DNA from: Selaginella tamariscina | Lineage: Eukaryota; Streptophyta; Lycopodiopsida; Selaginellales; Selaginellaceae | Direction: 5' to 3' | Assembly: GCA_003024785.1 (NCBI GenBank) | Contig: PUQB01000865.1 | Location: 19,522-83,521 of the forward strand | Length of the DNA stretch: 64,000 bases | Shown: one piece after another, positions 21,925 through 42,756 of the stretch | Layout of the letters: every line of letters starts with the position of its first letter | Numbering within the stretch: the first letter of the stretch is position 1 | The notes under the pieces: generated by a model | Databases searched by the model: none | Told to the model about the DNA's origin: nothing | What the model saw: the letters and a program-made list of their open reading frames with translations, nothing else | Position numbers and translations under genes: made by a program

Positions 21925-22124
21925 TTACATGCTGTACATAGTTCTTGAGAAGCGTTTACGACGCACACCGAAAATGATTTCCCATGGTTTGTTCCAGAAT
22001 GCTATAATATATAGCATCAAAGAGAAACTAGTCACTGCAACCAATGCAAATGCAGGCAGCGACATAAATTCCTCAATCCTTTGCAGCATGCCATAATGAA
22101 CCACCGGTTCTGAACGACTTGAGC
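21925..22124 (-). pseudogene. LRR receptor-like protein gene, 3' piece (membrane anchor and tail)
   Basis: The minus strand from 22124 reads SSRSEPVVHYGMLQRIEEF, then a transmembrane helix (SLPAFALVAVTSFSLMLYII), a short basic cytosolic tail (VRRKRFSRTMYSM) and a stop at 21925-21927. This is the typical C-terminus of a plant LRR receptor-like protein without a kinase. The reading frame continues exactly from the 30127-31800 piece once the intervening Mutator-like element and one target-site copy are removed. Confidence 0.75.
22116..22124. repeat. Target site duplication, left copy
   Basis: GACTTGAGC, identical to 30127-30135. One further base (C) on the left also matches at 22115/30126, so the duplication could be counted as 10 bp. 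It falls in LRR-gene coding sequence (SSR codons on the minus strand). Confidence 0.85.
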
Positions 22125-22148
22125 GAGTCCCGACAAAAAGAGGGCTTC
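22125..22148 (+). repeat. Left terminal inverted repeat of the Mutator-like element
   Basis: Starts GAGTCCCG, includes CAAAAA and ends GGGCTTC. It aligns without gaps to the reverse complement of 30103-30126 at 17 of 24 positions. It is followed directly by about three further copies of an 8-base unit, GGCTTCCG, up to about 22170. Confidence 0.75.
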
Positions 22149-22179
22149 CGGGCTTCCGGGCTTCCGGGCTTGGACCCGG

Positions 22180-22236
22180 AATATTCTAAAGAATCTACCA
22201 GAATATTCTTAGAATATTCCTAAATATTCTTAGAAT
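22180..22236. promoter_or_regulatory. Left subterminal GAA/TTC blocks, heat-shock-element-like
   Basis: A cluster of alternating GAA and TTC triplets spaced by 2-3 bases, including GAATATTCTTAGAATATTCC at 22201-22220. This fits the nGAAnnTTCn heat-shock factor binding pattern, with one 3-base gap. The same type of block is present at the other element end. It could equally be a transposase binding site. Confidence 0.5.
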
Positions 22237-22250
22237 TTAGGATTTTGGCT

Positions 22251-22259
22251 CAGTCGGCA
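22251..22259 (+). promoter_or_regulatory. Left subterminal half-site of the palindrome array
   Basis: CAGTCGGCA, identical to one arm of the palindromic unit repeated at 25755-26286. It lies between the left GAA/TTC blocks and the end of the methyltransferase gene. Confidence 0.6.
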
Positions 22260-22349
22260 ATTAACAACAAAAAATATTTAATCATAGCCATGTTTATACT
22301 GTATTATTAAAGTTTTATTTCAACACCAAAGAGTACAATTCAACACTTG

Positions 22350-25300
22350 TCACTTCTTCTTACGATTGAGCAATGCTGCAATTCGTGAACCACCAGTCCT
22401 ACTTGACGTCGCTATTGGTTGGGTTGGGATTTCCTCTGGCTGGATGTTCTCTTTAATCCTGTTCATAGCAATTCTCCCGAGCTCAGGGTTCTTCTCAGTC
22501 CCAACAATGTTTCTCCCCAGCTCGATAGCTGCAAGCATTGAGGACCCCGTACCACTGCCTATATCCCAGATAAGATCACCTGGCCGGGTGAGTCGTTCTA
22601 TCACGAGCTGCATCAATCGAGTGCTCTTCGGTTGGTAGTCCATCCTGCATGTGAAGATAATGGTAAATACTTAATTGTTGAAATGAAATGCCTACCATGG
22701 TTCTTGGAACCGCTCAGGATTATCAACAAGAATTGTTGATGACAAACGCAGCGGATTATCGCGCAATCCTCTAGATGCATCTTGGAAGACAAGAAGGAGC
22801 AGGATGCTCTCCTGTTAAAACATCAAAATCATTAATGAACTTCATGAATAAAGAAAAAAGTACCTTCATCTTGTTGCGGTAGCCCCAACCACGCCCTCTG
22901 TAGATGTAGTACGTTGCAGCAAGTTGAAGGTCCACCACACTTGCAGCTCGGACAACTTGATCCCAGGTGTTTGCTGCAGCAAACACAACCAACCAACCAT
23001 TTGCAGCCATATGCATACCTGCAAACTGGAGTGCTTCATCGAACTTCACTGGATCAAGGTAGAGGTATGGCGTATCACTCGTTGTATTTCCTGGCAAGGT
23101 CCCATTTGGAAGGTCGAAGATCACCAAGTTGAAACCATATTCTCCCGCAATATGCTGGTAGCGAGTCTGGCTGTCAGCTGTATGGTACCTGGCCACCTGT
23201 GTCTGAACTTTTCTATAAGGAACCAGTCTAGCGTCAGGAACCTCCTCTTCCTTCTCATCCGTGAGCACGGCCTGTTGCATCTCCTCGATGTCATCAATCG
23301 CCAAGAAATTATCACCTCGAGTTGTAGCAAGTGAAGGGACGAATGTGACCAAGTCATCCTTGATGTCCATGGTTCCCTGCGATGGTAGCACTTCAGATAA
23401 ATTGAAGAAGGCAGCTGGATCGCGAGTAGTGGAGGTGCCAGCTACTGTATCTGAGGTCTTCTTTGACTGCTGCACAGGCTGACGCCGCTTTGCCTTGGCC
23501 TTTGTCTTCTTAATGAAGTCGACCTCTGCCGGATCCCATGAGATGCATGGGAGATCTTTTGAGTGTTCATTGTAGAGATCCTTCTCCCATGTTGGTGGTT
23601 GCCCAGGTGGATAATCAAGCCAGAACGGTACGTGTACACGCTCGAACTCTGTCAGGCCAGATCTTGTCTTCGACCACATGTGTGGTGCTTCCATGTAATC
23701 TGACCAGAATACCATAGTCTGTGTGTGAGGCACCTTTCTCGCTGCGACATACCTGTAATGAACATATAGTAGTGTCAGAATGTAACAATGTCAAGAAGAT
23801 CATCCTTACCTCCAAATCATCCTTCTTGCTGTCTCTTCGTGTTCGAGGAACTCTTTCGGCTCTATGGAGTAAGTGAACTTCACACACTCATGGAATGGCT
23901 GGAACATCACGTTCTTGCATTTTACCCGCACTTCATCGCACCAAGTCGTGAAATCTGTAACCGGCCTGCTCCACTCGCCATCCTCGATGAGTCCCGTGAG
24001 AATCTGTACTGCCTCCTCTCTGATTGCCCGCCAATACAAATCGATAGTAAACCACCTTATCCACTCCTTATCCTGAACACCCGGCAATCCAAGTGTCTCT
24101 TGCTCTCTCTTCAGATCGAGACGTACCAGTTTATTGAAGTACATGATTCTCGTCTCGTTTGGAATTCTCGCCCTTGAAAGCGCGTACAGCTTTTCCAACC
24201 CCATCCATCTGCATTGTTTCCATGTGATTTGGGTCACCTTGTCGAACCACTCTTCACCCAATGCAGGATCGATGATGGCTAAGATCTTCATCATGCGCTT
24301 GTCATGCTTAATGTAGACCTGTTGTTGCTCCTGGTATTTGTTGCCTTTGGATGCCCTTGCAGCCTTCTCAAGATCATCCTCAATCTCACTCTGTAATTCA
24401 CAGACGTAATCAACTAAGTGATATAAGTGTGAGACATGGTACCTCAAAAAAGATCTTTGCACAGATCAAATTCGGAAGTGGATGCCAAGCTTGTTGTCCA
24501 GTCGCGCTTTCCTTCCACTTTCTTATGTCATCTCGTTCCTTGTCACTGAGCCTGGCCAAGATCTTCGCTGTGCCCTCCTCACTGGTGCAACATGTCTTCA
24601 CAGATAGCAGAAGATGTGGCAGTGTGGTTTGCACTGCCGTTGCGGAGGAACTGCATATTTGAAAAGCTCGAAGTTAGTTAATCCTATGATCTAGAGGTCA
24701 CTATGTTTACCTATTAATTTGCTGAAACATTGTCACAAGCTGAAGATTATCCATGACCCCAGCACGGATGAAGCCTGAACGCACTCTCACTGCCCACTGA
24801 ATCTTATCTTCCGTGTCTTCTGTGTACAGCTTCTGAAGCACCTTTAGCCTGTGATTACCATCCCAACAGATGAACTTCTTCATCGAAAGCATTGGTGCCC
24901 ATTGCCGGAACATGTCGGACTGAAGCTCCTCCTCAAAAGCCAAATGCTGAGCATACATCGCTTCATCGCTTCTCAATGCTGCCAGATCTGCATCTGTCAT
25001 GGGGTCCCCAACTTGAAGGATGAACTGAGTGGTGTTGCGCAAATAACCAACTGCCTTCTTGAAACTCCTAGTCAAAGATTCCAGATCCGCTGGATTGACT
25101 CTCCGCACCTGCTCATTTCCCAGAATTCGGCAAATAGGGACATCCGGTGCCTCTCCATATTCTCGGATTGTGATCTTCGCGAGAAGACGCACTGCACTCT
25201 CCGAATGCATGCTGGCTGCAATGTTGTAAACTTCCTCATTATCTGGCACTTCTGCTTTCCCCTTCTTCTTCTTCTTAGCAGCCTCTGAATCTCCAGCAGC

Positions 25301-25669
25301 TTTGCGTCGTCTCTTCTTGCTCTTGGGTTCATCCTCTTCGTCACTCGACAAAGTCACTGCGCATGAGGCTTGTGTGCCTTCTGTCTGCTCCTGTGTCTCC
25401 TGTGGTAAGACATCATCCTCAACTTCTTCAACAAAGTCTGATTGTTCTTGTTGGGGTTGAACTACATCCTCTTGCTCTCCTGACCAGTCCTGCTGGCTTG
25501 CCTGTTCAACTGGAGCATCACTTGAAGGTCCTTGTTCCTGAACCACAGCCAGCTTCCTACTTCCTCTCCCACGACCCCGACGCCCTCTCTGAATTGCAGC
25601 TCTAGCTTCTGCTTCTCTCTCAGTAGGCTCCTTCATCTTCTTTTCTTGTAAACGTTGTGAAGAGCGCAT
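22350..25669 (-). CDS. ParB-like domain plus permuted DNA amino-methyltransferase, six exons, 1015 aa
   Basis: Exons: 25669-24711, 24650-24443, 24390-23810, 23752-22864, 22811-22696, 22644-22350. All introns are GT-AG and the frame is uninterrupted. Residues 28-39 are GRG-rich (AT-hook-like); nuclear-localisation-like lysine/arginine clusters lie at about 116-138. A ParB/Srx-like domain spans about 165-280, with PICRILGNEQVRR and the DGNHRLKVL box (270-278). The C-terminal part is an N6/N4 amino-methyltransferase in beta order: motif IV first (NLVIFDLPNG; DLPN at 796-799 in place of DPPY), then motif X and the SAM-binding motif I (GDLIWDIGSGTGSS; GSGTG at 947-951), then AAIELGRNIVGTEKNPE. It is divergently transcribed from the transposase gene across the palindrome array. 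I infer a chromosome-bound protein that methylates adenine or cytosine in or near the array. The changed motif IV could mean altered or lost catalysis. Confidence 0.85.
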
Positions 25670-26754
25670 CTACAAAAGCAATAAGGTTTAACAAAAAACT
25701 GTAATAAATGTTCAAAGATGTTTAATAAAAATTAAAAAAACATACTAGCCCTCACAGTCGGCGTGCCGACTGAGAGAGCAGTTGCTGTAAGTCCCAGTCG
25801 GCATGCCGACTGGGACTGGCAACAAAGGGAGCCCAGTCGGCATGCCGTGGGTGGCACAAAGGGAGTCCCAGTCGGCATGCCGACTGGGACTGGCACAAAG
25901 GGAGTCCCAGTCGGCATGCCGACTGGGACTGGCAACAAAGGGAGGCCCAGTCGGCATGCCGACTGGGACTGGCAACAAAGGGAGCCCAGTCGGCATGCCG
26001 ACTGGGCGGCATCGCAACAAAGGGAGTCCCAGTCGGCATGCCGACTGGGACTGGGCCTGGCAAAAGGGAGGCCCAGTCGGGCATGCGACTGGGACTGGGA
26101 ACGAAACAAGGCCCAGTCAAAATGCTAGGTGGGACTAGAACAGTCAACCCTAGTCAAAATGCTGACTGGGGCTGGAACAGTCAACCCCGGTCAAAATGTT
26201 GACTGGATCTGGAACAGTCCACCCCAGTCGGCCTGCCGACTGGGACGGACAACGAAGTCAGTCCGAGTCGGCAGGCCGACTCGGATTTCTTGCAACTGTG
26301 AAGAGATGTAAAAAGATGAACAGATCATGAAAAGATCATGAGCAGATCATGAAGAAATCAGAAAATACTCACCCCCTCAATGGAAGCCTATTGTGATTAA
26401 TCCCTGGAGCCACACTTGCTCCACGCTATGCCCCCAAATGCGCCGCTGCTCCACGAAAACCTAGCCGCCCTCTGCCCTAGCCGCCCTAATTGCAAAACCC
26501 TAGCCGCCCTAAATCAATTAAAAACCAACCTAATTTCTGTAAACATATTGCATGCATGATCGCCACTTGTACATAGTAAAACTTTTTAATTTACAAAAAA
26601 CCTACCCAGACGCAGTAAATTAATTTCACTCTTCTACCCAGACGCACGCAATTAATATTATTTTTAATATTTGTCAATGAAATGATTGCCTCACGACTGA
26701 CAAACACATGTGTCATTGTCTTTGAATTTTAACTTTTGTTTGTTCCATTTTTAC
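25670..26754. promoter_or_regulatory. Divergent promoter region between the two Mutator-like element genes
   Basis: About 1.1 kb separates the two start codons. It holds the palindrome array (25755-26286), then a short GATCATGAA-type repeat (about 26318-26352), a repeated CCTAGCCGCCCT motif (about 26460-26510) and AT-rich sequence. Both genes must be driven from here, so any protein bound to the array could control both. Confidence 0.6.
25755..26286. repeat. Array of about 14 palindromic units, ~39-bp period
   Basis: The consensus unit is CCCAGTCGGCA followed by its reverse complement, a 22-bp perfect palindrome with GCATGC at the centre, separated by spacers like ACTGGCAACAAAGGGAG. Good units start at about 25793, 25867, 25905, 25946, 25984, 26027, 26223 (CCTG centre) and 26263 (CAGG centre). 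The unit at 25755 has GCGTGC; those at 25832 and 26072 are damaged; those near 26111, 26151 and 26188 are diverged to GTCAAAATG arms. The flanking genes encode a ParB-like protein and a methyltransferase, which suggests a parS-like binding array. Each unit has CpG and CATG sites for methylation. Confidence 0.9.
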
Positions 26755-29700
26755 ATGGCAAGAATCAGCTACAATGGTGTTGACAAGGACTTCCCTGCAG
26801 ATGAAGATGGTATTGCATTTGTCTTTGAAACAGATCTCAGGTCTGCATTTGACATTCCACCTTGGCAATCTTTTAAAGTGCTGCATTTGATGTCTGTTGT
26901 TGGTGGAGATGCTGCGAATGTTGAGGTAGAACCAGAAGGGGCAAGAGCTAGCAGTTTTGTGTATTACACACTTCTTCCTTCCAAAGGACCGCTATTCCGG
27001 TTGGAGACAACAGATCGGGACAATTCTATGGTAACAATACTTCGCAATAGTCAGAGATGTAGGATTGGGAAGCAACTGGTGGTCTCGTCATCGATTCAGC
27101 AAGTTGCTGAGGTCCCAGAAGATTGCAACGGAAATGTGATTTACGAGTTGCCAGCACACGAAACAATGAAGGACAAGTACAAAGGGATGAATAGGAAGGA
27201 TGGGTGTGATTACTGGACTCAACGCTGCACAACACATTGGAATGTTCCAGCTCGTGTTAGTCGCAGTTCATGTATTGGCCACATGAAATGCGTAAAGGAA
27301 ACATGTCCGTTCATCAGCTTCAGTAAGAAAGCAAATGACTGCCAATTTAAGGGCACCATTGATAAAGTCCAGTTATCTTCAGATGGTAGAGTGCTTGGAA
27401 TGAAGTGTGTGCATTGCAACAATGAGCCCCTTCTAGTGCAGACATGCTCCGTTGTTGCATATTACATAATTCCAGATGATATCACATGCACGAGGCTTTT
27501 CATCCATCTTGGAGAACATCAACACCCACGTAGACCACCCGAATCCATGGTCTCTAAAGACAGAGCTAAGGAGACAATCAACAAAGCAGTCGCTGCAACC
27601 CCAAGAACTAATCAACGTGTCATAGAGTTTCAAGCAGCACGCAATATAATTTTGGAAAAACTGGTAACAGATTCTGGAGATGTATCATACGACAAGGTTC
27701 TGTCAGATCTACTACCACTCACAAATCACCGCCGGTAAGCAAAAAAATTATTATTTCCTTTTGGAGATGCTTAACCTTTCCAATGTAGAACAAGAGAATG
27801 GATATCTCAGGCTAGAACAACAGACACTCGTTTCAAAGAAGGTTACGAAGGACTTCTGCAGTTAAAGAAGAAGCTATCAATCCCATTCATACATGTTATC
27901 CACATACCCGGAATGGACCTCAACGGAGCTGAAGAGCAGCCTTTAATCTTCAAAATGACAGTTGCCGGCCCAGGATCCGGAATAGACTACATTAGAAGGT
28001 GTCAATCTGGAGGTGATCTCGAACAGCAGTGGGTGGTGCTAGACCACACATATCGTATTGATGATTGGTGTACACTGGGAATACATCTCTATGATCCATT
28101 GTAAGTATTAACATATCTATGTTTTAAAATACTTACTAATATAATGCACTTATGTTTGTGCAGTTTAAGGTCGATGGTGACACTTGCTTATGGTGACATG
28201 ATCAGGGAGGATAGTGTGGCGGTGATCAAATTTTTGAACACTATGCTTCAAGTGTGCAGCAAGCAAGGACTTCATAATGTGAACTTTGCGGGGTTCATGT
28301 CAGATGAGTCAGGTGCAATTTGGTTAGCATTGCGTCAAGTTTTCAACAATGGGTCAAAGATGAGAGGAAGAGAAAGGAGTTGTTTGTTCCATTACATGCA
28401 GTCAGTGCGTCAAGTTACAAAGAAGTGGATACTTGAGGAACACAGGGAGGAGCACATGAACCTTGCACGCTCATGGCCTGCAGCACTAACCAACCAAGAT
28501 AAGTTGGAACGACGAGTAATGTTGGAGTCATTTTGGGAAGGCAGGTCCAGTAACGTTAGCGCTTTGCAAACATGGCTGTCATGGTGGGCAAGACATGAAG
28601 ATCATATTTCCATGACAGAGATAATTGACTTGACAGAAGATGGTGTTGCGAATGTGCCTACCACTAACAACTCCGAAGTTGTTCATGCAAGAGCACGAAG
28701 AGCAAGGCTGACGAAGCGTGTTCCTTTGTTGGAGGCAACAATGTTAGATTTAACAGATGCTGTTTTCCAAAGTGCAAAGGTCAAGGCATCATTTGAAGGG
28801 AGATATTCAGGCACAGGTCCTTCCATGGAAACTCTTCTGAAACGTGCACAGCAGAAACTTTCAGCGGGAAAATCAGTGTCTCCAACAACTTTTGCAAATC
28901 TTGTTAGTGATGAAGAGCATCTTGCAAGTCCAGAGTTTGCCTCTACAACAAATGTTCGTGTTCGAACCGTTCGTCAACCGTCAACTGGGGACCATGGGAT
29001 TGATGCACTTCGTACACATAGACATGACACACAATATGCAGAACAAGTCATCCCAAATGCACGCAGGAAAAAACTCAAGTTTCAAGATGTCAATGTCACT
29101 GAAAGAGAGACGTTGATGACTCAGTGGGCCATCAGACGCATTGGGGAGGCAAGTCAGGTGAAATGTCTAGGTCTCACTCAGGACGGTAACAGCAAGTGTG
29201 GCAGACCCATAGGATATCCACATCGTGTACCGGCACCAGGATTTCACGGTAGACGGCAATATACAAATGCATTTGGGAACATTGAGTTCACTCATCAGAT
29301 GCTATGGTTCTGCCCACGCGATTCTTGTTGCTTCAGACGACCATATGCAGGGATTCCTCCTGAGAGTATTCCAGAAGTTCCAGAGGTTTGGCCAGTTCAA
29401 AAAGGAACAAACTTGAATGCAAATGAGGTTGAAGCTCTTCTGAAAGCAGGATTCAAGTTGGAGGGATTTGAAGAAATGGTAGACGACAGTAGTAGCCGAA
29501 TGGATCGAACACCATCACCACCAAGAGGAGAGGGAGCACATAGAGTACCAACATACCATGGACGGAGTGTGCGAACACCAACAAGAATGTCCAAGGAACA
29601 TGAGAAACATTACAACCAGGCAAAGATTCTTCAAGGTCGGATCAACAACGTGGAGGTGGTTCAAAGAGGGAAGACTGAGGCCTTCATTGTCTCTGCAGGC

Positions 29701-29928
29701 ATGCAATCTGCTAAGGTAACAATTTCTGCTGTTCCGTCATGCACTTGTGCAACTTTTCAGAAAGCCAAGAACTGGAGCCCCTGCCAACACATGTATTTTG
29801 TGTACACTCATGTTCTTGGATTAGACCCAACGATTACTTACTTCTTACAGAGGCGGACCCTTACTCCAGCAGAAGTGCATCGGTTATTGGTTGGTTGCAA
29901 GCGCAATGTCGAACCTGCGACTTTTTAA
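26755..29928 (+). CDS. Mutator-like transposase with WRKY/GCM1-like zinc region and SWIM finger, three exons, 1018 aa
   Basis: Exons: 26755-27734, 27789-28100, 28164-29928, with GT-AG introns and one clean frame. The start MARISYNGVDKDF is chosen as the ATG nearest the conserved part; another ATG lies in frame at 26710. Residues 151-257 are cysteine-rich and end in HLGEHQHPR (HxH at 255-257), like the WRKY-GCM1 zinc fingers found in MULE transposases. The DDE core shows D412 (WVVLDHTYR), D478 (FAGFMSDESG) and a CLFH motif (504-507), in MULE order; I could not place the third acidic residue. The C-terminus has a SWIM finger (C957, C959, C971, H973). It would cut and join the element ends. Its domain order also resembles other SWIM-bearing transposase families, so the class call rests on the 9-bp target duplication as well. 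Confidence 0.87.
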
Positions 29929-29931
29929 GTT

Positions 29932-29991
29932 TAGTCGGTATAGTAAAGTCTAGTCGGCAAATAATTAGCGTTTTTCACTTGTTGGTCGGCA
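29932..29991 (+). promoter_or_regulatory. Right subterminal half-sites of the palindrome array
   Basis: Three near copies of the array half-site follow the transposase stop codon: TAGTCGGTA (29932), TAGTCGGCA (29951) and TGGTCGGCA (29983). They lie inside the element, between the gene end and the right GAA/TTC blocks. Confidence 0.6.
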
Positions 29992-30026
29992 TTTTATAAT
30001 GAAAGTTAAAGATAATCTACTTGGCA

Positions 30027-30077
30027 GAATATTCTAGAATATTCCCTTTTATTTGACAGAATATTCCTGGATATTCG
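30027..30077. promoter_or_regulatory. Right subterminal GAA/TTC blocks, heat-shock-element-like
   Basis: GAATATTCTAGAATATTCC at 30027-30045 is four perfectly phased GAA/TTC units (GAAnnTTCnnGAAnnTTC). Further GAATATTCCTGG and GGGAATA pieces follow to about 30083. This mirrors the left end. Confidence 0.55.
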
Positions 30078-30102
30078 GGAATATGCGAAAAGCCCGTTGT
30101 AC

Positions 30103-30126
30103 GAAGCCCGGTTTTTGCCAATCCTC
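30103..30126 (-). repeat. Right terminal inverted repeat of the Mutator-like element
   Basis: Read on the minus strand it starts GAGGATTGG, includes CAAAAA and ends GGGCTTC, pairing with 22125-22148. The adjacent target duplication is at 30127-30135. Confidence 0.75.
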
Positions 30127-30135
30127 GACTTGAGC
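30127..30135. repeat. Target site duplication, right copy
   Basis: GACTTGAGC, the partner of 22116-22124. The LRR gene reading frame resumes from here towards higher coordinates. Confidence 0.85.
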
Positions 30136-31800
30136 CTGTACCGTTCACTGTTGATAAGCACTTATGTAGTAACATTGCACCGCACAACTCTGGATTGCCT
30201 AGATAGCTGTCCAAGTCAAACGTATCAAACTGGCCACTTTCTGGAACTGGGCCTTGTAACTTATTGAAGGAAACATTGAAGTAGGCAAGAGAAGTCATCT
30301 TGGACAATGTGGTTGGAATTATCCCACTGAATTGATTATAGGATAAGTCGAGGCTCTCCAGTTTTGTTAGGTTGTCCAAATTCGGTGGAAGTTGACCGAG
30401 AGCTTGTTATTTGAGAGATCCAGAAAGCGAAGATTAAAAATGTGACTCCCAATGGCCTCAGGAAGCTCTCCAAACAATTCATTTTGAGATAGATCCAAAA
30501 AGCCCGTGTCTGATCGAAGGGGTCGATATGCCATTCTCGCCCTTTCACATTGATATTAATCGTAGAAGCCACTACCGTCCACTATTACCGGACCCTAATC
30601 TGAGATTCAAGTTAGATGGAATCCTGCCCCGGAGCTGGTTGTGTGAAAATCTAGAAAATAAACACATTGAAGATTCCAGATCCAACTAGGTATGCTTCCA
30701 ATGAACTGGTTTCTTGCTGCAGAAAGTATCTCCAATTTGTCAATTGTATCATTTGTAGCCAGGGGAAATTGACCGGAGAATAAGTTGTTTGATATGTTGA
30801 GGATGACAAGATTTTGTGATAACCTTGGAAAGCTACCAGTCAAGAGATTTGATCCCAAATACAAGGAATCAAGCGAACTGTTGGGATGGAGATTGACATG
30901 TCCAGTCAAACGGTTGTTGTCAAGGTTTATAGCGAAAATCTGTGGTAGTTCTGCAAAGCCCACATATAAGCAAGAGCAATTATTGATTTTTAGAGCTTAC
31001 CAGTAATGCTGGTCGGTATATGACAATAAGTTGATTGTTGTCCAAGCGAAGATCAACTAAACCGCTACAATTCCCCAATGTGGAAGGTATTGTACCATGC
31101 AATGTGTTGGAACCTAAATGTAAAGACCTCAAGTTTTGTAGCAATCCCACCTCCGGAGGTATTTCACCAGTTAACATATTGTTGTGGAGATATAAATGAA
31201 CCAAATTCTGCATCATTCCCAAGTTTGAAGGAAGAGGGCTTGTCAAACTAGTGTTACTAAGATTCCAACATTCTGATGCTCTTCATCTCACACACTGATA
31301 ACAGTATGCTTCCCACTGAGAATGAATTGGATGACAAACAAGCTCTTGTAAGTGCGTGAGTTGAGAAATCTGTGGTGGATGGAACTGTTGAGTCGGTTGG
31401 CACCAAGATATAAATTTGTGAGGCTCCTCAGTTCCCACAATGGCAATGGTATGCCTCCTGAAAGTGAATTCCTTGCCAAATCCAACACTTCCAACTTTGT
31501 AAGTTGAGAAATCAATGGTGAGATGGAACCATTGAACATGTTATCGCTAAGATACAAAACGCTTGAGGCTCCTCAATTCCCACAATATTAATGGTATGCA
31601 CCTGAAAGTGAATGCCTGTCAAAGCCAATACTTCCAACTTTGTAAGTTGAGAAATCAGAGTTGAAATGGAACCATTGAACGTATTAAAACCAAGATCCAG
31701 ATGCCTAAGGTTTTTTTAGTTCCCACAATGGCAATGGTATGCCTCCTGAAAGTGAATTCACTGCCAAATCCAACACTTCCAACTTTGTAAGCTGAGATTG
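30127..31800 (-). pseudogene. LRR receptor-like protein gene, main LRR part, broken
   Basis: The minus strand encodes many plant-type LRRs (for example LTKLEVLDLARNSLSGGIP, MQNLVHLYLHNNMLTGEIP, LTKLESLDLSYNQFSGIIP). The LRR block ends with the typical cap (PESGQFDTFDLDSYLGNPELCG) and juxtamembrane sequence up to the Mutator-like element at 30126. The frame changes several times (for example near 30400, 30620, 31000 and 31290), and the LRR-rich DNA near 31290-31800 repeats a ~150-base unit. No signal peptide or intact N-terminus is seen. Such proteins sit in the plasma membrane and act in defence or development. The copy looks dead both from internal breaks and from the insertion. Confidence 0.8.
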
Positions 31801-37881: not shown

Positions 37882-38040
37882 TGTAAGATCCATGTGTAGC
37901 GCTGCTGTGCACATACTATTATTAGCGTAGTGGATTTTATAGCCGTCGGATTGGATTCAATCTAGACCACTCGCTCTTGTATATAAGTTAGGGTTTCTGA
38001 ACTAATGGATATACACATTTCTATATTCCGAGCTCTCACA
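37882..38040 (+). repeat. 5' LTR of the gypsy element
   Basis: TG...CA ends; a TATATAAG box at about 37979. The following bases TTGGTGGATGAGGGGC should be the primer-binding site, but they do not match the usual initiator-Met site TGGTATCAGAGC and I could not assign the tRNA. Confidence 0.9.
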
Positions 38041-38174
38041 TTGGTGGATGAGGGGCACCTCTAATTGTCCCTACGGAGTGCTCGGATTTGTGTCTTTTTT
38101 CTTGTCTTCTTAGGTCTAGCTTTTCCATTGTCTAGATCTATTCCTTTCTTGTGGATTTTGTCTCTTCTTCATCC

Positions 38175-39110
38175 ATGAATCCACAACAGACAAATCCCTT
38201 GTCTGTGGAGCAGTTACTCATGCAGTTGTTGGATGCCATGCGTGTGCAATTGAACAATCATTCTCAGTTGATGGCAGCATTCACAGGCCAGGGTACTCCT
38301 CCTACGCATGTTGCAAACCCCCGTGTCCGACCGGATTTCTTTCGCGGAAATCCTGGAGATGATGTGTACCATTGGTTTGACCACTTCACTGTGGTTGCCA
38401 CATATCATTCGTGGGACGGTGCTCAGTGTTTGCGCGAGTTTCCTACTTGTCTTCAAGGGACGGCGTTGCAGTGGTACAATGGTCTGGACGTTGCAACTCG
38501 TGGCGATTGGAATATTCTTCCAGAGATCTTCAAACGTGCATTTGGGCATGCGGACGACTGTGATGATGCTTTTCAGCAGTTGCATCGTATTCGTCAGGAG
38601 CCGTCTGAGTCGGTGATGCAGTTTGGTGTTCGCTTTCGAAGCCTTTTGCTGCGTGCAGAACCTAACATGTCGGAACGCATCAAGTTAGGTATGTTGTGGC
38701 CAGCACTTCGTCAAGACCTTGTGGGGCTTGTGCATGCACTAGCTCCAGTGACTCTTGACGATGCTTTGAGGCTGGCACAACGATATGAGTCGTCACCTCT
38801 CCCACTTGTGCCTTCACGTGCTCTTGTTCCACTCCATGTTGGGGATGGACCTGCTCCGATGGAGGTTGAGGCTGTTGCCGCTCGTGTACCAGCACAAGGT
38901 GGGGCCCGTGGACGAGGACGTGGACGTGCAGTTCGTTGTTGGGCATGTGATGAGGTTGGACACACGTATCGGCGCTGTCAACGGTTTCCCGATTGGCGTC
39001 CCCCATTTCCAGGATGGAGGCCATGGCGGCAACAACGTCCGGTTGGTGCTGCTGCAGTGGAAGGTTGTGATGCGGTGGATCTTCCGGGAAACGACGAATC
39101 GCACGAGTAG
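38175..39110 (+). CDS. gag: Gag polyprotein of the gypsy element
   Basis: 311 residues from ATG at 38175 (MNPQQTNPLSVEQ). It holds the plant gypsy Gag core (FFRGNPGDDVYHWFDHF; LQGTALQWYNGL; residues about 40-190) and a CCHC zinc knuckle (CWACDEVGHTYRRC) near the C-terminus. It forms the cytoplasmic particle and packages element RNA. A stop at 39108-39110 separates it from the protease frame. Confidence 0.85.
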   Translation: MNPQQTNPLSVEQLLMQLLDAMRVQLNNHSQLMAAFTGQGTPPTHVANPRVRPDFFRGNPGDDVYHWFDHFTVVATYHSWDGAQCLREFPTCLQGTALQWYNGLDVATRGDWNILPEIFKRAFGHADDCDDAFQQLHRIRQEPSESVMQFGVRFRSLLLRAEPNMSERIKLGMLWPALRQDLVGLVHALAPVTLDDALRLAQRYESSPLPLVPSRALVPLHVGDGPAPMEVEAVAARVPAQGGARGRGRGRAVRCWACDEVGHTYRRCQRFPDWRPPFPGWRPWRQQRPVGAAAVEGCDAVDLPGNDESHE

Positions 39111-39136
39111 AGGAGGGTCCTCGTGCGAATAAATTA

Positions 39137-42100
39137 GTGACCCCTCCATCTTTCTTTCGGGAGTATCATCAAGGGGTTCACTCGGCACCAAATCATCCGG
39201 TTTTCACTTTTCAAGCTCGTTTCAATCGCACACCTCATCCTGTTTTCCTTTCAGTGTTGGTGGATACAGGTTCAAGTTTGTCCTCTGTTTCTCAATCTGT
39301 TGCTACACGTTGCAGCCTTCATTTGCGTCGTGCGGTAGAACCAGTCTTCATTCTGTACGGCAACGGACATACTCATGCTTGTTCGCGGGATGAAGTGGAC
39401 ATTGTTGTTCGTGTGGATGATTGTGAGCTCGAGCTTCAATCTTTGCGGGTGGTGCCGAGTCAAGCTTTTCACCTTATTCTTGGTATGGATTGGTTAACTC
39501 GCAATCATGCCAAGTGTGACTTTGAAAAGTCTCCCCCTTGTTTGACTCTCCCTCGTCTTTCTTCCATTCCTCTTACTTCTATTCCACTTCGTCCATCTGC
39601 TTCCACCTCTGCTTCCATCACTTTTGTCTCACCCTTATTTCCAACCATTTTCCCTTCATGCTCTTCCTTTTTTCTTTGGATCCATCAGATGATTCGTCGT
39701 GCTGTAGTTGTTGATCAACTCAAGGAAGGAGTATGCTGATTCTTTTCAACTTCACTTGTCATCTGGGGCCAAGATTGCGACACGCCACCCTATTCCAACT
39801 GGAGAAGCTAGGCCAATCAAGGTACCTGTTCGGCGTCGATCACCAAAGGAGCTCAAGATCTTACGAGCGAATGTCAAAGAGATGTTGGAGAAGGGTGTTA
39901 TCCGGAAGTCTCGAAGTCCTTGGGCGTGCGAACCTCACCTTGTGACGAAGCCTGATGGGAGCGTTCGATTCTGCATTGATTATCGCCCGTTAAATGAGGT
40001 AACCGTCTCAGATGTGTACCCACTTCCTCATACTGCAGACCTTTTGGATCGACTGGGGCGGAGCCGTTGGTTCACCAAGTTAGATCTCGCATCTGGATAT
40101 TGGCAAGTTCCGATGGCTGACATGGACATTCCCAAGACTGCTTTTCGAACACCATTTGGCCTGTACGAGTTCCTGGTGATGCCTTTCGGTTTGAGCAATG
40201 CTCCAGCAACTTTCCAGCGTATGATGGATGAGGTTCTTTGCGACATGCCGGAGGTGACTGCCGATTTCATCGATGATGTTTTGATCCATTCGGATGGAAC
40301 GTGGGAGGAGCATGTCGGTGATGTACGTAAGGTTTTGGATCGACTGCGGGAAGTTGGTTTGAAGTTGAAGCCATCTAAGTGTGTGTTTGGATCAAAGGAC
40401 ACCACTTATCTGGGTTATCGCATTTCACGTGAAGGTTTGCAAGTCGATCCTGACAAACTAGTTGCAGTTTTGAAGTTCCCTACGCCAAAGTGTGTGAATG
40501 ATGTGCAACGCTTTCTTGGCAAGGTACAATATCTGGGTCGTTTTGTGGATCATCTTTCAGATCGTACTGCACCGTTGCGCGCGTTGTTGAAATCGTCAAT
40601 GACTTCTTTTGTTTGGTCTAAGGATTGCAAGCAGGCATTTGCAGATCTCAAAGAGTTGTTGACGACTCCTCCAGTTTTGGCGTACCCGGATTACACTCGT
40701 CCTTTCATCTTGCGTGTAGATGCTTCTGACATCGGCCTCGGGGGTGTATTGATGCAGGAGAGTACAAGTGTTCCTGGCCAACGACATCCCATTGCATACA
40801 TCAGCCGTACATTGCAGCCAGCAGAGGTGAATTACTCCACAACTGAAAAGGAGTGTCTAGCAGCAGTTTGGGGTTTTGAGAAGCTCCATGCCTACTTGCA
40901 TGGTTCGCGGACGTTGTTGGAAGGTGATCATGCAGCAGTCACTTCGTTGTTGAAGCGAAGAATTTGATTGGGCGTACTGCTCGGTGGGCCTTGAAACTTC
41001 AAATTTACGACTTTGAAGTTGTTCATCGTCCAGGGAGTTCCATGGCTGATGCTGATGCTCTTTCTCGGGCTCCTCTTCCACCTTCTCTCTCTTCTGTTGC
41101 CCCAGAGGAACCAGTTGTTCCAGCTTCAGTGGACTTTTTGGATGAAGATTCCGTACCATCAGCAGTTGCTGTGCTTGACGTTCAGTGTCCGCAGAATGCA
41201 GAGTTAGATTTGCCGTCTTTGGATGAGGTTCGGGAAGCTCAAAAGGTTGAGCCGTGGATTCGAAGGCTTCGTGATGGGTTTGAGAATCCTGCATCACTTG
41301 CTGATGACTTGCCTTTCAGGCATTTACATTCACAGTATCGCCTTCAGGATGACCTTCTTTATTTTGTGGGGACTGATCCAGATGATCCTTTGCGGTTGGT
41401 GGTGCCTTCAATCTTCATTCCACGCTTCCTCCATGCTTACCATGACTCTCCTATTCTTGGCGGGCACATGGGACATCGTCGGGTGATGGAGAAGCTGCGC
41501 AGATCTTTCTATTGGCCGGAGTTGCGAGGAGATGTGATTCGGTATGTGCGTAGTTGTGTGTGGTGCCAAGCTCGCAATACTCCCCCATGTGCTTCGGAAG
41601 GACGGTTGGAGTCAATTGCAGTTTCTCGTCCGTTTGAATTGGTGGCATTTGATTTGATGGGACCTTTTCCGCGGTCAACTGCTGGTAACGAGTACGTTAT
41701 TATTGCTTCTGATTACCTAACTCGTTGGGTAGAAGTTGGTGCTCTTGCTAGTGCGACTGCTTCTGCTGTTGGTCAGTTTCTCCTGAATCGGGTCGTGTTT
41801 CAGCATTCTTGTCCGGAGCGAATTCTCTCGGATAATGGTCCCGCATTTATGGCTGAGGCATTTCATGTTTTGACATCTCGATTAGGGATACGCCACACTT
41901 TCACAAGTGCTTATCATCCTCAGACAGATGGTTTAGTGGAACGGCTTGTTAGAACCTTCAAGGGGATGATCGCAAAGTATGTGAACTTTCAACATTCAGA
42001 TTGGGATGGTTATCTGCCGTCTCTCCGATATGCTTATGTCACTGGAGTTCAAAGTTCCATTGGTACTTCTCCATATAAGCTTTTGTATGGTCATGACCCG

Positions 42101-42563
42101 GTGTTGCCAACGGAGTTGGGTTTGCCTTCTCGGTTACCGCGAGCTGCTGATGCTAGGTCTGGGATCGGTATCTGACAGCATTCTTCCATTGGTTCGTGCG
42201 GAGTCAGCAGAACACTTGGGCCGCGTACAAGTAGGACAACAACAACGCTACAACTCGCATCATCGTCCTCCTGCGGAGTACAAGGTTGATGAACTGGTGT
42301 TGGTTCGTTTTCCCAAGCTTACGGTACGTGGTTTAGCTAAGAGTCTCCTTCCTCAATGGAAAGGACCGTATCGAGTGTTACGGCAAGTAGGGCCACAGGT
42401 TTATGAGGTTCGGCACGACATTCAACCCGATCCTCCGGAGATTGTACATGTACAACGGTTGAAGCATTTTGTGCAACGGGAACAAGTTGTGCCGCCTACA
42501 GATCCACCAGTGCCTCCTCCTGATGTTCCTCCAGATCCGGGCCCGTCTACAAGAGAACCCTAA
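39137..42563 (+). pseudogene. pol: Pol region of the gypsy element (PR-RT-RH-IN), frame-broken
   Basis: Protease at about 39140-39520 (LVDTGSS active site; LILGMDWL). Reverse transcriptase at about 39820-40480 (FIDDVLIHS catalytic box). RNase H at about 40680-40960 (RVDASDIGLGGVL; TTEKECLAAVWGFEKL). Integrase at about 41400-42160, with an HHCC zinc region (C..C in SCVWCQA) and DDE residues in AFDLMGPFP, SDNGPAF and TDGLVERLVRTFKG. The GPY/F-like C-terminus (PQWKGPYRVL) lies at about 42350, followed by a proline-rich tail. Changes of frame at about 39.73, 40.96 (single base) and 42.17 kb split the polyprotein, so this copy is probably not autonomous unless they are sequence errors. Confidence 0.85.
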
Positions 42564-42595
42564 CCAACTTACACCCTTCCGAGAGGAGGGGATGA

Positions 42596-42756
42596 TGTAA
42601 GATCCACGTGTACGGCTGCATGTGCACATACTATTATTAGCGTAGTGGATTTTGATAGCCGTCGGATTGGATTCAATCTGGACCACTCGCTCTTGTATAT
42701 AAGTTAGGGTTTCTGAACTAATGGATATACACATTTCTATATTCCGAGCTCTCACA
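42596..42756 (+). repeat. 3' LTR of the gypsy element
   Basis: Nearly identical to 37882-38040. Differences are a few substitutions and single-base indels near its start (ACGGCTGCATG against AGCGCTGCTG) and middle. It is preceded by a purine-rich tract. Confidence 0.9.

Follow-up and report, generated by a model that had tools for sequence, protein, structure and literature searches.

We describe an 8,002-bp transposon (positions 22125-30126, outermost letters GAG...CTC) in a 64,000-bp stretch of contig PUQB01000865.1 of Selaginella tamariscina, referred to here as the window. The element carries two divergent genes, one encoding a transposase similar to those of Mutator-like elements (MULEs), the other a protein in which a ParB-like region precedes a homologue of DNA amino-methyltransferases. 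The element has carried this methyltransferase-like gene for a long time, and the short motif AGTCGGCA recurs both between the two genes and near the element's ends. From the arrangement of genes and motif we lean towards an autonomous MULE-like transposon whose second gene encodes a self-targeting accessory protein, which would act on the half-sites in the shared promoter region and at the ends.

The gene pair in two transposon families

The ParB-like/amino-methyltransferase gene lies on the minus strand (22350-25669) and is predicted to encode 1015 amino acids (aa) in six exons (25669-24711, 24650-24443, 24390-23810, 23752-22864, 22811-22696 and 22644-22350). The MULE-like transposase gene, on the plus strand (26755-29928), is predicted to encode 1018 aa in three exons (26755-27734, 27789-28100 and 28164-29928), with a SWIM-like zinc motif at the C-terminus. 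All seven predicted introns, whose splice sites we chose from the sequence, are of the GT-AG type and 51-63 bp long. An earlier note on this DNA had described two spliced, divergent genes of these lengths inside a 9-bp target duplication, and this description was borne out, both frames being open in the window.

Other copies were sought in the 300.7-Mb assembly (1391 contigs). Our copy sample consists of the window and the 20 copies ranked best by their left end (21 in total) and, because of this ranking, leans to the youngest copies. The methyltransferase gene is present in 20/20 copies retrieved by the left end; the left-end probe overlapped the last 51 bp of the gene, so that this sample is biased. 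A second sample was drawn by the right end and comprised the 16 of 23 matches without a partner in the left-end list, for which 1.6 kb was read at the expected place of the 3' part of the gene. This part was found at the expected distance in 16/16 copies, with identities of 95-99.8%. Absence of the gene from other copies, which the earlier note had named as an observation that would overturn its proposal, was thus seen in neither sample.

The gene pair is also found outside the family of the window element (family A). A genome search with the methyltransferase family PF01555, in which 150 of 739 candidates were scored, yielded 20 extracted loci, 12 of which belong to family A and eight to a diverged family B. 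At the family B locus L065, a methyltransferase gene start (minus strand) and a MULE-like gene (plus strand) diverge across about 1.08 kb, and four matched stretches of this transposase are 49-81% identical to family A. Protein identity between the methyltransferase segments of the two families is 29-73%. The proportion of synonymous differences between families (pS) is saturated (0.75-0.94), and the nonsynonymous proportion (pN) ranges from 0.19 to 0.40 in 18 of 19 segments, the remaining one, of 28 codons, reaching 0.59; segment choice relied on tblastn and so leans towards conserved stretches. Saturated pS together with low pN indicates that both genes were under selection over most of the sequence compared. 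Judged by these comparisons, the two genes have long stayed together under constraint, in families that are deeply split. Beyond the methyltransferase gene, seven of seven compared family B loci (of the eight) end in CACTC, with differing flanks beyond; read inward, this end is GAGTG(C/T)CGCC or near, resembling GAGTCCCGAC of family A.

Constraint can also be seen within family A, where nonsynonymous differences are in deficit in both the methyltransferase gene (16 of 28 differences, P 0.010) and the transposase gene (27 of 42, P 0.033). For the methyltransferase gene this deficit persists among differences found in more than one copy (4 of 10 nonsynonymous, P 0.010).

The palindrome array and the half-site

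The intergenic region contains a palindrome array at 25756-26281 (no strand), in which AGTCGGCATGCCGACT occurs six times exactly and three times with a single mismatch, mostly at a period of 39 bp; shuffling gave an expectation of 0 exact copies against the six observed. The array lies 87-612 bp upstream of the methyltransferase start and 474-999 bp from the transposase start. The number of exact 16-mers per array ranges from 2 to 13 (20 copies including the window, with the deleted copy L021 outside this count). Genome-wide, a 22-base form of the palindrome has 1092 occurrences and its reversed control has none; among the matches listed, a listed family A gene or end lies nearby on eight of nine contigs (the ninth, C13, was outside this comparison). 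Next to the main palindromes, a second tandem array, containing AGTCAAAATGCTGACTGG at a 37-bp period (window 26112-26229), has a related but different unit and may be a decayed or alternative site.

The half-site AGTCGGCA is the top 8-mer by minimum count common to the intergenic regions of families A and B. It occurs 16 times in family A (0.02 expected) and six times in family B (0.01 expected; L065 only), and the repeats that surround it differ between the two intergenic regions. In addition, AGTCGGCA is found close to the ends: at 22252-22259 (no strand), 127 bp from the left end, in 21/21 copies, and near the right end at 29952-29959 (no strand), where it is exact in 20/21 copies (not in L011) and accompanied by one-mismatch versions at 29933 and 29984. 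In family B it lies downstream of the methyltransferase gene in seven of seven loci examined. Given that such a short motif has been retained at these locations despite saturated divergence, AGTCGGCA is best read as a putative binding site for one of the element's own proteins. The ends of both families share a second subterminal motif, namely repeats of the type AATATTC directly inside the ends (window 22175-22236, no strand, and 30025-30085, as well as the family B ends).

Domains and possible action of the second protein

From about residue 770, the second protein contains a methyltransferase domain of permuted order (22350-23193, minus strand; profile alignment), with DLPN at the position of motif IV upstream of DIGSGTG, the S-adenosylmethionine (AdoMet)-binding motif I. 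PF01555 matches residues 923-978 (E 7e-9), and five methyltransferase families of the PHROG collection match at E 3.1e-5 or better. A profile built from families A and B aligned with nine phage enzymes in hhalign at E 1e-19 over 195 columns, with the permuted motif order; among its rows, L054 (family B) is in part a chimera with an adjacent family A copy, and L045 is frameshifted over part of its length. The methyltransferase half of the ParB-amino-methyltransferase fusion proposed in the earlier note hence survives profile searches, and its ParB half is suggestive only.

This ParB-like region spans residues 140-319 (24713-25252, minus strand) and includes the box WDGNHRL, which is present in 21/21 copies and identical in both families (one family B locus read). 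ParB/Srx-like domains contain box I followed, in this order, by a G-x-x-R box. Residues 176-210 resemble ParB box I and residues 265-281 box II; an insert of about 40 residues separates the two. No ParB similarity was found in Pfam, PHROGs, NCBIfam, a PDB profile search or a genome search with PF02195. We compared the region by hhalign with 41 extracted viral ParB loci, which had been found via a consensus typed by hand. Box I aligned in register with a score of 20.4 (best of 60 shuffles 18.0) at a probability of only 3.6%, and an unrelated phage methyltransferase profile scored 11.7. With the 40-residue insert removed both boxes aligned, WDGNHRL falling on the GERR box, at a score of 20.0, which was reached by 2 of 200 shuffles; with the cut placed at two other points, the scores were 19.9 and 20.8. 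A score of 23.9, obtained at the best of 12 insert cuts and by none of 60 shuffles (highest 22.9), was discounted, as the DGNHR box is out of place in that alignment. When the ParB-like region was sought in viral contigs, a pattern matched 110 stretches, none of them a relative, and a ParB fusion sought in nine phage loci was absent from the three proteins checked by Pfam. The N15 ParB set was too distant for comparison and a structure predicted for the ParB exon from the single sequence reached a pLDDT of 42; neither was used. Neither protein of the element had homologues at E 0.001 in a set of 5.8 billion proteins (among the 7996 candidates of a capped set and the 7062 candidates that were scored).

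ParB binds clusters of parS sites, and VANC proteins, encoded by the VANDAL elements of Arabidopsis, which are MULEs, bind tandem motifs. With these two systems as models, the ParB-like/methyltransferase protein (less likely the transposase) would bind AGTCGGCA half-sites as a dimer or a cluster, and once bound might act on the element's own promoter and ends. The most likely effect would be that these are kept clear of host silencing, or that the element's expression and transposition are tuned. To this end the protein might place an unusual amino-methyl mark on adenine or cytosine; should its altered catalytic site be dead, it might act through AdoMet-dependent binding alone. The second gene would then perhaps encode an anti-silencing factor like VANC. 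We regard as rather improbable a more specific, parS-like form of self-identification, in which the protein would load on the AGTCGGCA clusters in promoter and ends, write N6-methyladenine or N4-methylcytosine, and thereby block host silencing by 5-methylcytosine; if true, it would represent a eukaryotic counterpart of phage self-modification and a natural tool for site-addressed DNA modification.

Several observations weigh against a self-targeting accessory protein of this kind. The catalytic motif of known amino-methyltransferases is (D/N/S)PP(Y/F/W), with an aromatic residue. In both families the catalytic DPPY is replaced by DLPN (21/21 family A copies), which has no aromatic residue and departs from this beta-class motif, so that methylating activity is doubtful. 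The second protein, as its sequence presents it, is a methyltransferase homologue of doubtful activity, and the module for the element's own DNA methylation envisaged in the earlier note is doubtful as well. The ParB assignment of the N-terminal region is no more than suggestive. Furthermore, C-to-T differences among copies are enriched at CpG (17 of 410 CpG versus 35 of 2747 other C/G positions; odds ratio 3.35, P 1.7e-4), and host CG methylation therefore seems to reach the element. This seems to give an anti-silencing factor something to oppose, yet protection would be incomplete. The L065 transposase contains stops, and this locus provides the only family B intergenic region read. Finally, among differences found in more than one copy the nonsynonymous deficit of the transposase is unclear (5 of 9, P 0.12).

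Given the altered motif IV, it is conceivable, if on balance doubtful, that the second protein is a pseudo-enzyme, that is, a partner of the transposase that binds DNA or senses AdoMet and has lost the ability to methylate DNA. The substitution by DLPN in both families is consistent with this, as is VANC21, which shows that anti-silencing of a MULE can operate via motif binding; the words 'methyltransferase' and 'demethylase' are absent from the main text of PMC5735166. On the other hand, the AdoMet-binding part with DIGSGTG (present in 20/21 family A copies) is the segment best conserved between the families among those tested, with 72-73% identity, and the catalytic D and one P are retained, so that the site might be unusual and still live.

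Alternatively, the half-sites might be transposase-binding sites for cutting, with the methyltransferase acting elsewhere or genome-wide. Their location near both ends of family A, where transposases bind, fits this explanation, which we nevertheless consider unlikely, as the densest array lies between the genes and nearer to the methyltransferase start than to the transposase start, and the number of exact sites varies between copies. Plant MULEs can capture genes, and Pack-MULEs are named in PMC12477816; a captured passenger gene is very improbable here and was rejected, since the methyltransferase gene occurs in every one of the 36 copies sampled and read at its position (20/20 and 16/16) and has been kept, and constrained, across families split at synonymous saturation.

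A self-targeting accessory protein would have several partial counterparts, which we compare here as far as the accessible parts of the respective papers go. The Sola1-1_Ec32 transposon of Ectocarpus carries a gene for a 1104-aa ParB-like/DNA-methyltransferase protein on the strand opposite the transposase; the authors propose that proteins of this kind might bind the transposon that encodes them and modify it epigenetically, and they cite green and red algal cases of ParB-like/methyltransferase transposon genes (PMC12477816). Both proteins are given the same two domain names and both genes lie opposite the transposase strand, but Sola1-1_Ec32 is a 21.5-kb Sola transposon of a brown alga, whereas the element described here is an 8-kb MULE-like transposon with 9-bp duplications and a binding-site-like array; the two are likened by description only. 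VANC21 of VANDAL21/Hiun in Arabidopsis binds a 9-base motif that is arranged in tandem in the element's own noncoding regions, where it causes silencing marks to be lost, and its target repeats are gained and lost between copies (PMC5735166; see also PMC10398659 for motif recognition and anti-silencing). The likeness to our element consists in a short tandem motif of changing copy number in the noncoding regions, recognized in VANDAL21 by the accessory protein. In contrast, VANC is not described there as a methyltransferase and its motif YAGTATTAY occurs in one orientation, whereas here the motif is palindromic and GC-rich and the protein methyltransferase-like.

With the beta-class N6A/N4C DNA methyltransferases of phages and bacteria (PF01555) the second protein shares the permuted order and a whole-domain profile match; it differs in having DLPN instead of DPPY, a long N-terminal extension and introns. 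Bdelloid rotifers provide a eukaryotic case of a functioning N6_N4 methyltransferase of bacterial type and permuted order (N4CMT; PMC8885841), although there it is fused to a chromodomain and, in the text available, not placed on a transposon. Mariner elements integrated in viruses likewise have a methyltransferase gene beside the transposase of a DNA transposon (PMC3627910), but these are of other methyltransferase classes, accompanied by endonuclease genes and located in viral genomes, with no ParB-like part named in the accessible text.

In the open-licence literature, whose long result lists were covered in part, we found no ParB-like/methyltransferase transposon from a land plant or with a MULE-like transposase. 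The remark in the earlier note that it knew of no described plant element of this kind thus stands for land plants within the literature searched; beyond them, algal cases are in print (PMC12477816, accessible part). New here are the MULE-like backbone, a probable new host group and the candidate target site; the ParB-methyltransferase transposon gene itself was already known. The target and role of the algal counterparts are only guessed at in the available part of PMC12477816, which gives no target site for them. The near-identical copies, the diverged second family and the conserved, repeated motif described here offer a concrete target site that can be put to the test. Should the protein mark or un-silence the element that encodes it, this would be an anti-silencing system unlike VANC and a candidate source of non-canonical plant DNA methylation.

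Ends, copies and superfamily of the element

The transposon is flanked by two copies of the target-site duplication GACTTGAGC (22116-22124 and 30127-30135, no strand). Its terminal inverted repeats are short and imperfect: the left one (22125-22149, plus strand) begins with GAGTCCCGACAAAAA and the right one (30102-30126, minus strand) reads inward as GAGGATTGGCAAAAA; the start GAGTCCC is present in 21/21 copies including the window. When the flanks are joined minus one duplication, a single open frame of 156 aa for a leucine-rich repeat (LRR) receptor-like protein runs across the insertion site. This host gene lies on the minus strand (window 21925-22124 and 30136-30600) and shows LRRs, the motif NPELCG and a membrane segment. 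The element thus interrupts the last part of an LRR receptor-like gene.

The left end has 224 and the right end 215 candidate matches in the genome, and for each end 40/40 of those scored are 99-100% identical. Apart from the window, 19 of the 20 sampled copies are 7.3-8.2 kb long and one (L021) is 5.0 kb; parts of the transposase gene are lost in L015 and L021. Substitutions relative to the majority base in the gene halves amount to 0.03-0.41% (16 copies; L010, L014, L015 and L021 excluded). The element is thus a young, many-copy DNA transposon. Both frames are open in only two of the 21 copies as assembled (the window and L016), the transposase frame in six (the window, L012, L016, L017, L018 and L024) and the methyltransferase frame in three (the window, L016 and L023). 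In the transposase half of 16 copies, 36 of 55 single-base deletions fall within runs of at least two bases, and one insertion site is present on three contigs, with open frames in L016 but broken ones in L010 and L014. Part of the broken frames is therefore probably due to assembly error, alongside which some copies may have genuinely decayed.

Elements of the Mutator-like superfamily generate target duplications of 8-11 bp, typically 9, and in their transposases a DDE-type core is followed by a C-terminal SWIM zinc finger. Of the 21 copies, the window included, 17 are flanked by an exact duplication of 9 bp or more (offsets of up to two bases allowed); the same test found none at L016, L017, L021 and L023. 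The SWIM match of the transposase (E 0.026) is below the cut-off. The motifs CxC...CxH, LDHTYRID, SDESGA and CLFH, which may be read as SWIM and DDE-type core motifs, were found in 18-20 of the 21 copies. The MULE domain PF10551 gave no match in the transposase at E 10, and none of its 77 matches in the genome (150 of 158 candidates scored) lies at these elements, as judged by comparing places by eye. We therefore call the transposase MULE-like only: the MULE assignment of the earlier note is supported by the 9-bp duplication, the sub-cut-off SWIM match and the motif layout, and lacks PF10551. A separate, canonical MULE family with PF10551 is present in the genome, with 16 matches of equal score and open frames of 433-673 aa (C102, C158, C291, C447, C476 and others).

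The window contains a further transposable element, a Ty3/gypsy-like retrotransposon at 37935-42756, named from its gag-like and pol-like frames (38136-42175) and bounded by two 106-bp direct repeats, at 37935 and 42651, that are 98% identical.

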